IMG/VR virus record: IMGVR_UViG_3300027777_000185
Span: 1 to 20,913 of that record
Source of the DNA: a virus
Length of the DNA stretch: 20,913 nucleotides
Reading direction: 5' to 3' (one strand)
Made by a program: the position numbers and the translations under genes. Below, piece by piece: positions 12,146 through 20,804 of this stretch. The notes under the pieces are model-generated. The model saw only the letters and a program-made list of their open reading frames with translations. It did not search any database and was not told the origin of the DNA. The number at the start of each line of letters is the position of its first letter. Within the stretch, counting starts at the first letter, position 1.

Positions 12146-12340
12146 TTACAACCGCCAGATGCGTATACCGCGCACACTTTCTTCTATGCAAACTTTGATA
12201 AGTATATTTACCTTCAACCGTTTGCACACCCTCTGCACATTGGCTTTAGCCAGTGCGCAGTTCAAGCAGGGTAGGAAGAAAGAAGTGCCCTTCTTAAAGT
12301 TACTCCAGTTTATGTTGTAACTAATCTGCTCTATCAGCAC
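12146..12340 (-). CDS. Small conserved-looking phage protein, function unknown
   Basis: The product has 64 residues. It runs from a GTG start at 12340-12338 to a TAA at 12148-12146. The start lies inside the last 20 bases of the primase-helicase gene, so translation is probably coupled; no strong ribosome-binding site is seen and no internal ATG exists. The sequence pattern is W-S-x-F-K-x-G-T-S-F-F-L-P, then a basic helix, then two strands ending G-I-R-I-W-R-L. I recognise this layout as typical of short phage proteins of unknown function; a small alpha/beta DNA- or protein-binding fold is possible. C28 and C31 (CLNC) alone are not enough for a zinc site. The stop is five bases from the stop of the convergent giant gene. 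Confidence 0.6.
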   Translation of the reverse strand: MLIEQISYNINWSNFKKGTSFFLPCLNCALAKANVQRVCKRLKVNILIKVCIEESVRGIRIWRL

Positions 12341-15218
12341 TGTCTACACCCGTGGCTACGAGGTTGTCCATATCCAGAAAGTCTGGGTTAGAGCAATCAA
12401 AGACCAAGGAGTAGACCCCCGGTGAGGTTATCTTCATGCCCTTGGACATGCGCTTGTTGACGCTGCCGATATACACCCCGCGTGCCTTTAATTGGACTAG
12501 AACATCCTTGTAGTGAACCTGACCGCTTACGCAGTCTTTACGGAAGTTGCTTGCAACGATGAACATACGCTTGGTGTCTGGCTCATACCGGATAATCAAC
12601 TCGCTGCGTGGTTCCAGTATCGGTGCGGCGTGCAAGCTAGTACGCTTGTCCACTTCTTCGTTCACCACAAGGATGTTCTGCATGTGGCGGTTGATAAAGT
12701 CACCAACAACTGCTGACACATCGCTGATGGGGGCGGCTACATCTTCTCTAAGTCCACGAAGCATTTGGATACACCATTGGTAGATAGCCTTCATATCGTA
12801 GTCGTGCAGCCCCAAGTTACGGGCAATCAATCCCCCAGTAATGTTGCAGGCGATAACCGCAGACCAGAAACGCTCACGGTTTGTGAGGCGCAGTTCTTTA
12901 TCGAGCTTGGCCTGAATAGCCAAGATGCCACTCTGTACTTCCTCTAGGTGGCTAACTAGGTACTGCGCATAAATATCCCCAGCTATGCCGTAGTTCTCCC
13001 GAAGCTGATGGTCAAACATTTCTTTGGCGGTATGCGGCGGGATGATGTTTGTTGGCTGGATGGTGTACTCAAGCAAGCGCATCATCTCACCGTCAGGGCT
13101 GTTCTTATGGATACCTAGTTTTTCATAGAAGCTGGCGTTGGCACTAGCCAGTGAGATAGTCTTCCAAGTGGTGTTGTTGATGCGAAGCTCGTTGGACTGC
13201 GACTTAGCTCGGTTCGCATAACGTCCTTGCGACATGCTGTAGGCCAGATTGGAGAAGTCCTCTGGTGCCATGTTAGTGATTTCATCCACCGTGAATGGCA
13301 GGTTGTTCATAACCCCCAAGTGAATCATCTTTGCAGCAAGGGTGTCCTTCCAGATTGCCGCCAGATTCTCTGGATGCCCATATACGCTGTTAGCCATAAA
13401 CAGGATGGTTGATTTGCCAGTCCCTGAACTCTTGTGGATCAGGTTGATGATGGCTCCGTTCTGTCCTGTAAACCCAAGCAAAGGAGAACCAAAGGCAGAC
13501 AGCGCAGCGAAAGCGTGCCCCTCTAGCCCCGGCAATGCGTACATGTTGAATACTTCCTTCCACTTCTCAAGCGTGCCCTTGGCGTTCATGAACTCTGCGA
13601 AATGCCGTGTAGCCTTGGACGGGGGGCTGTGAAACACACCGTCCTTAGTGATCTCTCTGTTGCCAATAATGAACTTGCTGTGGTTGTCTGCCCAGCCGAA
13701 TTGGGTTCTCATAGTCTCTGCTTTCCTTTTGTACTGAAGTTCTTTAACAGACATCATCACGAACGTAGTTATGTTGTCCATCTGTTTAGGTAGCCCAGCT
13801 ACCCCGTGCCTAGCCAATTCAGTGCGTAGTGCCTCCCTGACTGCTATGGTAGCTAGTGGGACTGTAAACTCCTTAATCCCATCCTGCGGCAAGTGCAGTC
13901 TAATCAGGGCAAGCTCCCCTTCCTCTGGGTCGGTCATCCTCTTGACTACATACAGGTCATGTTCGTAGACACATATTGGTTCTGCTTCAGCATCAGCATC
14001 CTTGGTGGGGGATACAAAAATGCCGCCGTTCTTGCCACGAAAGAATGGGAACGGGAACTTCGGGATTACGTTATGCGGCACATGGGTAGTGCCCGTTGGT
14101 AGCTCCGGCCCTTCGTCCCCTTCCTCCCTTTCTTCATCCTCCTCTGGGTAGTCATCCTCATCAGGAACAATGATCTCCCTGCCTAGACCAAGCGGAGTCT
14201 TACGCCTACCTTTGTGGGGGCAACCATCGCAGCCTCCGGGGTTATGTGATTCAAACGTAGCGCAGCTATGTGCTCCCCGTCCTCTGACCTTGTGCTCAGT
14301 TTCATTAGGGTCGTAGTTAGGGTGCTTCTCAGATAGTTTGTGGATAGCTGTATCACGGTCATCGCAGCAGTCTGCTACGGACAAGGCATCCCACCAAAGG
14401 GGTTCACTGATTGTTTCTTGGTTCTGGTACGCATACAGAAGTTGAGCGCAGCCCTCGCCCTTAATGCTTTTCAGCATGATCTTACTGAACTTGAGCATGG
14501 TGTTGCCAAGCAGGGACTTCTGTAACTCGCTCAGTTCTTCGCGTGGGGCTGGGGCTACTGAGGACGCGGTGCTTACGGGCAGTGGCTTAACACCAAGTAT
14601 GTCTCGGAAGGTGGTGAACTCTATATCCACACAATCGCTGATAACCTGTACTACGCTAGGGGGTTCGTCCTTGAAGTTGAAAGTGCCGGGGATACGCAAT
14701 ATACGGGCTACTTCGAATACGCTGGGGTCAACAAAAAAGTTATGGAGTATGCAGAGGTCACGAAGTTTTGCACCTACGGGTTCCCACTCGTCGCGGGTAA
14801 TCGGGGATACCAAAGGCCAGTACGCATGTATGCCGCGCCCTGAGTCCACAAGCAATGGGCGGGGTAGCCCGATGAGCTTACAGAAACTCTCTAGTGCGGC
14901 CAGTCCGGTTGGCTGGTCAATGTAACCATCTGGTCGGTTGGTTGCTGAGTTGATGACGGCCTTGGCTTCGCCGCAGTCTATGTCCAACCAAAATGCCTTG
15001 ATGCTCAGGACATTTTCTTTCTTACGGTTTTTATCGGTCTCGTACTTAGAGCAACCAAAGTATACATTGCGCTTCTGTCCGACAAACATAGCTTCAACTT
15101 CACTTACTTCTTCCCGTGTGGCTACCAACTCCTGCTTTACACTCTTTCCCTTAATGCCCAGCACAGCGAACCAGCCTACAGGGGCCAGCACTCTGTCCAG
15201 TAAATCAATGATCGGCAT
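12321..15218 (-). CDS. Fused primase-helicase (AEP prim-pol plus P-loop helicase)
   Basis: The product has 965 residues. The N-terminal part has archaeo-eukaryotic primase (AEP) motifs: WLDID with D79 and D81 for metal, SGRGIH ending at H131, and RILRIPGTFNFK (172-183). Next is a PriCT-like helical part (about 255-315) with EPLWWDALSVADCCDD and SEKHPNYDP. A small cysteine cluster follows (C319, C330, C333, perhaps H335), then an acidic linker (about 351-372). The C-terminal half is a helicase with Walker A SSGTGKST (K602), Walker B PFTVDEI (D645, E646) and a sensor-like SLASAN (689-694). It probably makes primers and unwinds the fork in one chain, as fused AEP-helicases do in phages and plasmids. 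The ribosome-binding site is weak (AAGAGA). It is separated from the upstream HTH gene by a terminator, and no DNA polymerase gene is in the window. Confidence 0.85.
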   Translation of the reverse strand: MPIIDLLDRVLAPVGWFAVLGIKGKSVKQELVATREEVSEVEAMFVGQKRNVYFGCSKYETDKNRKKENVLSIKAFWLDIDCGEAKAVINSATNRPDGYIDQPTGLAALESFCKLIGLPRPLLVDSGRGIHAYWPLVSPITRDEWEPVGAKLRDLCILHNFFVDPSVFEVARILRIPGTFNFKDEPPSVVQVISDCVDIEFTTFRDILGVKPLPVSTASSVAPAPREELSELQKSLLGNTMLKFSKIMLKSIKGEGCAQLLYAYQNQETISEPLWWDALSVADCCDDRDTAIHKLSEKHPNYDPNETEHKVRGRGAHSCATFESHNPGGCDGCPHKGRRKTPLGLGREIIVPDEDDYPEEDEEREEGDEGPELPTGTTHVPHNVIPKFPFPFFRGKNGGIFVSPTKDADAEAEPICVYEHDLYVVKRMTDPEEGELALIRLHLPQDGIKEFTVPLATIAVREALRTELARHGVAGLPKQMDNITTFVMMSVKELQYKRKAETMRTQFGWADNHSKFIIGNREITKDGVFHSPPSKATRHFAEFMNAKGTLEKWKEVFNMYALPGLEGHAFAALSAFGSPLLGFTGQNGAIINLIHKSSGTGKSTILFMANSVYGHPENLAAIWKDTLAAKMIHLGVMNNLPFTVDEITNMAPEDFSNLAYSMSQGRYANRAKSQSNELRINNTTWKTISLASANASFYEKLGIHKNSPDGEMMRLLEYTIQPTNIIPPHTAKEMFDHQLRENYGIAGDIYAQYLVSHLEEVQSGILAIQAKLDKELRLTNRERFWSAVIACNITGGLIARNLGLHDYDMKAIYQWCIQMLRGLREDVAAPISDVSAVVGDFINRHMQNILVVNEEVDKRTSLHAAPILEPRSELIIRYEPDTKRMFIVASNFRKDCVSGQVHYKDVLVQLKARGVYIGSVNKRMSKGMKITSPGVYSLVFDCSNPDFLDMDNLVATGVDSADRAD

Positions 15219-15241: not shown

Positions 15242-15269
15242 AAAAAAGGGGGAGACGAATCCCCCCCTT
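15242..15269 (-). terminator. Intrinsic terminator with UUCG loop, - strand
   Basis: Read on the - strand, AAGGGGGGGA and TCTCCCCCTT form a ten-pair stem (one G-U) closed by the stable tetraloop TTCG, followed by a run of T (six, two of them in the stem). It is directional: on the + strand the wobble becomes an A-C mismatch and no T-tract follows. It lies 21 bases after the HTH stop and 23 bases before the primase-helicase ATG. Confidence 0.85.
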
Positions 15270-15290
15270 GAAGAACAACTTAGTGCTGGC

Positions 15291-19724: not shown

Positions 19725-19925
19725 CTAACTTGCTTGCTTTACTTCTTCCCAGACAGTGCTAGGGTATACCTTATTGGTTTTCTCCATCGCGTCGCACTTG
19801 TTGCACACATGAGCGAATGGCAGGTCGGCATAGTTGACGTTGAACTTATGCTCAAACTCGCCGCCGCACTCGCACATGAGGCGTTGCACAACCCACTTGA
19901 TATTGCTTTCTTTGATGGTACTCAT
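19725..19925 (-). CDS. Small zinc-ribbon protein
   Basis: The product has 66 residues. C18 and C20 (MCECGGEF) and C41 and C44 (HVCNKC) can form a four-cysteine zinc site across a beta hairpin; H26 or H39 are alternative ligands. This is a minimal zinc ribbon with no other domain. Such proteins may bind nucleic acid or RNA polymerase, but nothing here decides which. The start overlaps the stop of the upstream HTH gene (ATGA at 19922-19925). A 42-base gap, AT-rich but without a clear promoter, separates its stop from the Cas4/RecB-like gene. Confidence 0.7.
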   Translation of the reverse strand: MSTIKESNIKWVVQRLMCECGGEFEHKFNVNYADLPFAHVCNKCDAMEKTNKVYPSTVWEEVKQAS

Positions 19926-20155
19926 TTTCTAATCGCCTTTTTATAGAGGTGTTCACGAAGTGTTGTCCTGCTCAAATTCATTCGCCGTGCGATAGCTGAT
20001 TGGTTCATACCCATAGCAAGCAACCTATCAACCTCAAGCGACCTTTGTCTTGCTACTGCTGTTGATCCTGCATGACCGTTAATGACGCCCCCAAAACACA
20101 TTACGATTTTAGATTGGGGTGGCAGGGGAGTCCATCCTTCAGGGCAGTACGGCAT
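19922..20155 (-). CDS. Helix-turn-helix protein, second of a tandem pair
   Basis: The product has 77 residues. Residues about 49-71 (GMNQSAIARRMNLSRTTLRE) form a helix-turn-helix of the resolvase/sigma-like type: A-I-A-R-R-M, turn N-L-S, recognition helix RTTLREHL. The N-terminal 30 residues start MPYCPEGW and have no clear fold. The upstream neighbour has the same layout (MPY-x-P start, C-terminal HTH), so the two are probably paralogues. The ATG overlaps the upstream stop by one base (TAATG). It is likely a DNA-binding regulator of early genes or a replication accessory (inference). Confidence 0.7.
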   Translation of the reverse strand: MPYCPEGWTPLPPQSKIVMCFGGVINGHAGSTAVARQRSLEVDRLLAMGMNQSAIARRMNLSRTTLREHLYKKAIRK

Positions 20156-20415
20156 TAGCTTTTCCTTTTCATCAAACGATATACCGCATCTTCTGTTATG
20201 CCCAATCGCGCGGCAATGTCTTTGTACTGCAAACCTGTTGCACGCAACGCTTTAACTTTGATTGCAGCCTCGTCAAGACGGCCACCCTTAGCACGCCATC
20301 GCGCAGCCAGATGATCCAGACCTGCCTGTTTGCGAGTCATCTGTGCGGGTGTGCATCGCTTGCCTTCGATTACGCAGACGGACTCAAGCGGGTGTGTTAG
20401 TGGGGCGTAGGGCAT
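20155..20415 (-). CDS. Helix-turn-helix protein, first of a tandem pair
   Basis: The product has 86 residues. Residues about 61-83 (GLQYKDIAARLGITEDAVYR) make a clear helix-turn-helix, with A-A-R-L-G-I-T and recognition helix EDAVYRLMKRK. The N-terminal half is Cys/Thr-rich, then basic (HLAARWRAKGGRLDEAA). Its ATG (20415-20413) is one base after the TGA of a 16-codon frame and sits in the loop of the hairpin at 20399-20430; its likely ribosome-binding site (GGTGGGG) is in the 5' arm of that hairpin. Translation is therefore probably controlled by, or coupled to, the micro-ORF. The function is inferred as DNA binding. Confidence 0.7.
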   Translation of the reverse strand: MPYAPLTHPLESVCVIEGKRCTPAQMTRKQAGLDHLAARWRAKGGRLDEAAIKVKALRATGLQYKDIAARLGITEDAVYRLMKRKS

Positions 20416-20430
20416 ATCAATAGCCCCACC
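20399..20430 (-). promoter_or_regulatory. Hairpin covering the start region of the HTH gene
   Basis: In the mRNA, GGUGGGGC (20430-20423) pairs with GCCCCACU (20406-20399): eight pairs, one a G-U, around a 16-base loop. The loop holds the UGA of the micro-ORF and the AUG of the 86-residue HTH protein, and the 5' arm contains the candidate ribosome-binding site. Part of the loop (GCCC) could instead pair with the GGGC of the 5' arm, giving a competing shorter hairpin. Confidence 0.55.
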
Positions 20431-20467
20431 GAATACGAAAATCGTCGTACTCTTTATCTTTAGCCAT
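20417..20467 (-). CDS. 16-residue micro-ORF (MAKDKEYDDFRIRWGY)
   Basis: The frame has ATG at 20467-20465 and TGA at 20419-20417. It has the best ribosome-binding site in this part of the window: AAAGGAG at 20481-20475, seven bases before the ATG. It overlaps the end of the 114-residue gene and stops one base before the next ATG. The charged and aromatic peptide is not recognisable. It may be a real microprotein or only a translated leader that opens the hairpin at 20399-20430 for the HTH gene. Short frames can arise by chance, but the strong site and tight junctions favour translation. Confidence 0.45.
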   Translation of the reverse strand: MAKDKEYDDFRIRWGY

Positions 20468-20804
20468 TGTTCTTCTCCTTTAACAACGCTTCAATATCCC
20501 TGACCATCCACCACGGCTGGTCGTTACGCAAATGCTCAATCTCATCATCCGTCAGCCCAACCCAAGGGCGTGGCTCTGGGTTAATTTCAAGCTGTGCCAA
20601 GTTTGCCCATTCGGGGCGTGAGGCGTATAAATCTGGTTCGTTTATATAAACCCAATCTAGCAGTTCAATTAAATCAACGGCGGTGGTGTTGTGCCCACCT
20701 TCGTTGCGGGCGACAACTATCGGGCGTCCATTTTCGTAATTTAGTTTTAGTTTTACGTCCATGCCCTCGCCGTATTCAGTAACTCCGGTCATTATTTCAT
20801 TCAT
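20460..20804 (-). CDS. Hypothetical phage protein
   Basis: The product has 114 residues. It has a strand-rich first part (MDVKLKLNYENGRPIVVARN), a Trp-containing helix (VDLIELLDWVYI), and a C-terminal PWVGLTDDEIEHLRNDQPWW segment ending in a charged helix (VRDIEALLKEKN). A W-x-G-L-T-D-x-E-I pattern appears in many short phage proteins, but I cannot give a function. The chosen ATG at 20804 has GAGGGG six bases upstream and overlaps the stop of the partial upstream gene (ATGA); internal ATGs at codons 5 and 15 are less well supported. Confidence 0.6.
   Translation of the reverse strand: MNEIMTGVTEYGEGMDVKLKLNYENGRPIVVARNEGGHNTTAVDLIELLDWVYINEPDLYASRPEWANLAQLEINPEPRPWVGLTDDEIEHLRNDQPWWMVRDIEALLKEKNNG

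Follow-up and report, generated by a model that had tools for sequence, protein, structure and literature searches.

A putative short leader frame behind a shared gene-end module, with a predicted masked helix–turn–helix gene start, in an uncultured phage

The start region of a small helix–turn–helix (HTH) gene in an uncultured phage is best explained, by a single reading that we hold with slightly better than even confidence, by a 16-codon micro-ORF that serves as a leader frame at a gene-exchange junction and, through translational coupling, delivers ribosomes to the HTH start. The window analyzed here is a 20,913-base IMG/VR virus fragment. The micro-ORF/HTH arrangement is probably a case of ordinary linked translation, a well-known mechanism in a new instance, and the gene-end module that precedes the micro-ORF is the more unusual observation at this locus. 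The features discussed below are as follows.

20460–20804, minus strand: gene for a 114-aa protein that ends in the shared gene-end module (C-terminal tail PWVGLTDDEIEHLRND...IEALLKEKNNG), with tail relatives in loci L082–L085 and many others
20475–20481, minus strand: AAAGGAG, the ribosome-binding site of the micro-ORF (SD1), read directly and predicted to be unpaired
20417–20467, minus strand: micro-ORF of 16 codons plus TGA, MAKDKEYDDFRIRWGY, read directly from the sequence
20431–20452, minus strand: hairpin 1, within the micro-ORF, GAGUACGA-CGAUUU-UCGUAUUC, 8 pairs, −7.5 kcal/mol, pair probabilities 0.87–1.0
20399–20430, minus strand: hairpin 2, GGUGGGGC-16 nt-GCCCCACU, 8 pairs, −13.6 kcal/mol, with UGA and AUG in the loop
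20407–20429, minus strand: alternative hairpin, GUGGGGC (20429–20423) with GCCCUAC (20413–20407), 9-nt loop, the minimum-energy form in an 84–111-nt context
20424–20430, minus strand: GGUGGGG, a weak SD-like stretch of the HTH gene (SD2), anti-SD duplex −6.5 kcal/mol
20155–20415, minus strand: gene for the 86-aa HTH protein, with the predicted masked start (PF13384, E 1e-5; phrog_686, E 5e-5)
19922–20155, minus strand: gene for a second HTH protein of 77 aa, whose start overlaps the stop of the 86-aa HTH gene (TAATG)

The gene order on the minus strand is the 114-aa gene, the 86-aa HTH gene, the 77-aa second HTH gene and a 66-aa gene, followed by genes for a PD-(D/E)XK exonuclease, a second PDDEXK nuclease, an HNH-like protein, an SNF2-type helicase and a DUF927 protein, with close spacing or overlaps throughout. 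The DUF927 protein has 965 aa (window positions 12321–15218, minus strand) and lies within a replication-type gene block. Assignment of the 86-aa protein as an HTH protein is based on a PF13384 match of 25.6 bits (cutoff 24.6) at residues 56–84; together, its HTH profile matches span only residues 50–84 or so. The closest syntenic relative, L002, is without the 114-aa, HTH and second HTH genes, which indicates that this segment was recently exchanged. A helicase search of GTDB genomes did not yield a host.

Direct reading of the minus strand bears out the anatomy given in the initial annotation. AAAGGAG is followed by a 7-base gap (AAGAACA), the micro-ORF from its ATG (20467–20465) to its TGA (20419–20417), a single T and the HTH ATG (20415–20413). 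The final codons of the 114-aa gene contain both the micro-ORF ribosome-binding site and its ATG, the ATG overlapping the stop of that gene in a −8 configuration (ATGGCTAA). The anti-SD duplex of SD1 (−8.7 kcal/mol) is the strongest among 13 starts scored, and folding predicts an unpaired probability of about 1 for this segment; for SD2 the predicted value is near 0 except at one base, where it is 0.35. Codon usage in the micro frame is normal for this phage, and the frame looks more like coding sequence than do 97% of length-matched random open frames.

The same annotation had placed the UGA and the next AUG in the loop of an eight-pair stem whose 5′ arm contains the HTH ribosome-binding site, and this is what we find. 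The arms of hairpin 2 are GGUGGGGC (20430–20423) and GCCCCACU (20406–20399), with one G-U among the 8 pairs and a 16-nt loop, UAUUGAUAUGCCCUAC; hairpin 1 directly abuts this structure. A tandem near-repeat, GCCCTAC GCCCCAC (window positions 20407–20413 and 20400–20406, minus strand), supplies two 3′ arms that compete for one 5′ arm. The winner of this competition varies with the folding context, the probability of the hairpin 2 stem being 0.95 in a 20-nt context, about 0.3 in 50–100 nt and 0.82 in 200 nt. Because hairpin 2 and the alternative hairpin share the 5′ arm, the HTH ribosome-binding site is predicted to be buried either way. A search of Rfam 15 gave no match above the gathering score in the window. 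We also considered and rejected a Rho-independent terminator at hairpin 2, since the next minus-strand bases (AACACACC) contain no U run and no terminator-like site was called. Elsewhere in the window, a strong small hairpin at 15245–15275 (minus strand, AAGGGGGGGATTCGTCTCCCCCTTTTTT), where the DUF927 gene is separated from a small HTH gene, resembles an intrinsic terminator.

Neither composition, codon usage nor the encoded amino acids predict a structure this stable. An equally stable start-enclosing stem is found at 0 of 881 SD-preceded starts in related loci and at 7 of 6000 random ATGs; on the entire minus strand such stems occur in two places only, the other being intergenic at about 15,258. 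Dinucleotide shuffles reach the stem in 3 of 1000 cases. For the 59-nt two-hairpin core, the energy is −23.3 kcal/mol versus −12.0 ± 2.65 (SD) for shuffles, with 1 in 1000 as low. When both reading frames were recoded synonymously (3000 trials), 0.57% of the recodings reached the stem and 0.1% reached the core energy; the structure is therefore not dictated by the encoded peptides. Taken as a whole, the 111-nt context is only mildly stable (z = −1.56). These rarity figures are weakened by selection, the hairpin having been singled out for its striking look, and a rough correction for the approximately 17 gene starts in the window turns per-start values of 0.1–0.6% into about 2–10% for one such structure somewhere.

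In the coupling model, ribosomes would enter at SD1, read 16 codons across both hairpins and stop at the UGA in the loop of hairpin 2. By standard footprint geometry, the 5′ arm of the hairpin that otherwise buries SD2 would lie beneath a ribosome that has stopped at this UGA, and the stem could therefore not exist at that moment. The HTH AUG is located one base past the stop, where the same or a later ribosome could start. Output of the HTH gene would then track translation of the upstream genes and, given the TAATG overlap, output of the second HTH gene would likewise do so. The sequence of the peptide itself would probably be irrelevant. Two aspects of the locus conform to this scheme: (i) stop and start are one base apart on the same strand (UGA-U-AUG), within the distance of about −4 to +25 nt that we allowed for coupling, and (ii) the downstream start is predicted to be masked by structure that upstream translation crosses, with SD2 placed in two alternative hairpins. 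The spacing also falls inside the −4 to +3 nt range where coupling is most efficient (PMC12548453), and short uORFs have been discussed as ribosome deliverers (PMC12548453). Even for Escherichia coli, it is an open question if restart involves the same ribosome or the entry of a new one (PMC7538156).

Comparison with other phages indicates that the 114-aa gene terminates in a mobile module whose DNA also serves as a strong ribosome-binding site for any gene that comes next. The tail, W.GLTD.E...IEAKLKEKN, is carried by otherwise different small phage proteins in the window (20460–20560, minus strand), in L082–L085 and in L091–L170, with at least 143 tail relatives confirmed in one scan. The tail codons AAG-GAG double as the Shine–Dalgarno sequence of the next gene, where the DNA reads AAGGAG…ATG. 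In a set defined by protein motif, comprising 86 distinct tails from 72 loci (14 of them with two tail copies), the next start lies at −4 relative to the tail stop in 42 tails and at −8, as for the micro-ORF, in 35. The K-E codons of the tail are AAG for 75 of 76 lysines (background 56%) and GAG for 77 of 84 glutamates (background 45%), although the shared ancestry of the tails means that these counts are not independent. In a set defined by DNA, 98 of 109 ends have ATG or GTG at the expected position. A literature search on related ideas gave no description of this gene-end module, which is weak evidence of absence. We tentatively raise the possibility that uncultured phages share a mobile gene-end module in which the protein tail is kept partly for its DNA, as a portable ribosome landing site; genes would be exchanged behind the tail, occasionally leaving short leader frames, and the one described here would have an acquired hairpin switch over the next start.

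A frame of 16 codons is exceptional at this location, since frames after the module in the DNA-defined set have a median of 77 codons and a 5th percentile of 37. Next frames that start with ATG and extend for no more than 21 codons are seen in L024 (18 codons, identical in L157) and in L160 (21 codons). The L024 frame (positions 866–922, MTKDEALRMALDATGITE) is coupled by ATGA to an unrelated 115-codon gene and corresponds to the beginning of a longer, known gene (MTKDEALRMALEALDAL... in L165) that has been truncated. At the same place behind the module, L111 has a truncated remnant of a longer gene. The L024 case thus indicates that a short leader behind the module can arise by gene exchange, and the fact that the micro-ORF ribosome-binding site is part of a widely shared gene-end module makes an origin as a remnant likely. 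From these comparisons, the micro-ORF in the window is probably a gene-exchange leader or remnant of the L024 kind. L024 has no hairpin comparable to that of the window, and searches of the loci and of IMG/VR by pattern did not reveal a full-length gene from which MAKDKEYDDFRIRWGY could derive.

No relative of the HTH protein was found by IMG/VR patterns, in cultured phages using tblastn at E 0.01 and 10, or in GTDB genomes or contigs behind 87 loci (37 + 50). Two candidates were discarded: the L175 match falls inside a 401-aa nuclease-like frame, and L176 shares the bare HTH core only. The second HTH protein likewise has no IMG/VR match, and the peptide has no relative in the loci fetched by that stage or by IMG/VR pattern. 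Junction patterns gave nothing in IMG/VR, and at the DNA level the junction was found in no phages or plasmids; a cassette variant pattern, AARGAGAAGAAYAATGGCTAARGA, had as its sole match an unrelated 94-aa gene without the tail.

The main rival to coupling, and a real possibility even if we consider it somewhat unlikely, is that one gene begins at the module ATG and has been split by a one-base indel, whether a natural mutation or an error of assembly; the T4 and G4 runs of the micro-ORF would be candidate sites. In that case, the AUG at 20415 would encode a methionine inside the longer protein, and the hairpin would be an incidental by-product of the coding sequence. Indeed, the HTH frame is open upstream through the entire micro-ORF (LKIKSTTIFVFGGAID before MPYAP), and the module ATG normally opens a gene of median 77 aa. 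Codon log-odds favor the micro frame over codons 2–9 (+11.8 versus −3.1 for the HTH frame); over the last 8 codons the preference passes to the HTH frame (+6.7 versus +0.2). The 8 codons preceding the HTH ATG are the top-scoring among all starts examined. The best single frame switch gains 4.7 nats with the window codon table, as reached by 0.24% of 1268 real segments, but the gain is 2.3 nats, reached by 3.3% of 8431 segments, when the table is derived from 43,723 codons of related phages. With a tail of 0.2–3%, the codon statistics provide weak to moderate backing for a split gene. However, the continuous gene is present in no relative, HTH codons 2–26 are themselves weakly coding-like and the stability of the hairpins would have to be a coincidence. 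A programmed +1 frameshift at UUU-C was also rejected; the geometry allows it, but CGU is an ordinary codon and nothing speaks in its support.

It is also conceivable, but in our estimate unlikely, that the micro-ORF is junction debris, a short chance frame left by recombination behind the module, with the HTH gene coupled in the ordinary way and the hairpin having no particular function. The truncated remnants in L024/L157 and L111, the tight packing or overlap of neighboring genes and the recent exchange indicated by L002 would all be expected in that case, but hairpins stronger than amino acids or composition demand would not, nor would a micro frame that outscores length-matched random frames to the extent noted above. 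The inverted repeat GTGGGGC-N16-GCCCCAC could alternatively be a DNA operator for the HTH protein, with autoregulation by roadblock, rather than an RNA switch. This is a perfect 7-bp inverted repeat at the start of the DNA-binding protein's own gene, present as a single copy in the window where zero are expected. The proposal is nevertheless very improbable given that there is no promoter-like site nearby on the minus strand and no second copy of the repeat in the window or the loci, and it leaves the second hairpin unexplained. A further suggestion made in the initial annotation, that the 16-aa peptide may act by itself, is scarcely credible: the normal codon usage of the micro frame is compatible with it, but we found no evidence for independent function, and the peptide searches described above returned no relative.

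For translational coupling, the points in favor are the strong, unpaired SD1, the weaker, buried SD2, the rarity of the stem and core, the stop–start spacing, the launching of the next gene by the module elsewhere and the L024/L157 leader. The points against it are that neither the HTH gene nor the peptide has a homologue, that a striking case was picked from multiple starts, that a competing fold exists, that L024 is without the hairpin and that codon statistics lean toward a frame change inside the micro-ORF. The idea we started from, that translation of the micro-ORF opens the stem for restart at the HTH gene, is upheld insofar as the anatomy (strong exposed SD1, buried SD2 and one-base stop–restart) fits coupling and the stability is above that of controls, but it overlooked the shared module origin and the split-gene option.

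If the coupling model is correct, the locus would be a naturally occurring phage equivalent of engineered bicistronic leaders, and the output of a DNA-binding regulator would be tied to translation of the preceding genes. A protein tail whose DNA doubles as the ribosome entry site of the next gene would also explain how small genes can be swapped without loss of expression, comparable to the part played by integron ORF-11 for cassettes. ORF-11/ORF-18 of class 1 integrons resembles the arrangement described here in that a short frame with a strong SD is fixed in a recombination platform and ribosomes are supplied to whichever gene was inserted next (PMC8876359). There, the end of the frame is set by the inserted gene, and short frames can relieve attC stem-loops (PMC8876359). 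The integron platform is attI1 with site-specific recombination, whereas in the phage this role falls to the end of a protein-coding gene, with no recombinase or site identified.

A similar layout is found in bicistronic design (BCD) leaders, which combine an SD1, a frame of <20 codons with an embedded SD2 and an adjoining stop and start (PMC5995908), and in which structure at the second start is unfolded by ribosomes that entered at SD1 (PMC5995908). BCD leaders are engineered and their SD2 is strong, whereas the SD2 described here is weak and predicted to be buried. In S004-repA of Salmonella Genomic Island 1, and also in plasmid leader-peptide/rep systems such as R1 tap-repA, the leader stop and downstream start sit in one stem-loop, which hides the SD and start of the downstream gene, as is predicted here; translation of the S004 leader is required in cis (PMC7826253). 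S004 is longer, overlaps repA by four codons and has had its coupling proved by nonsense mutants, whereas coupling in the window is predicted from sequence. The plasmid systems also differ from what is known here in serving copy-number control, with an antisense RNA in R1. Finally, in the gene VII-IX pair of phage f1 a predicted hairpin blocks the downstream start and is opened by upstream translation (PMC12548453), as proposed for the HTH gene, but that pair has −4 spacing and full genes, and its hairpin lies upstream of the start rather than enclosing it.
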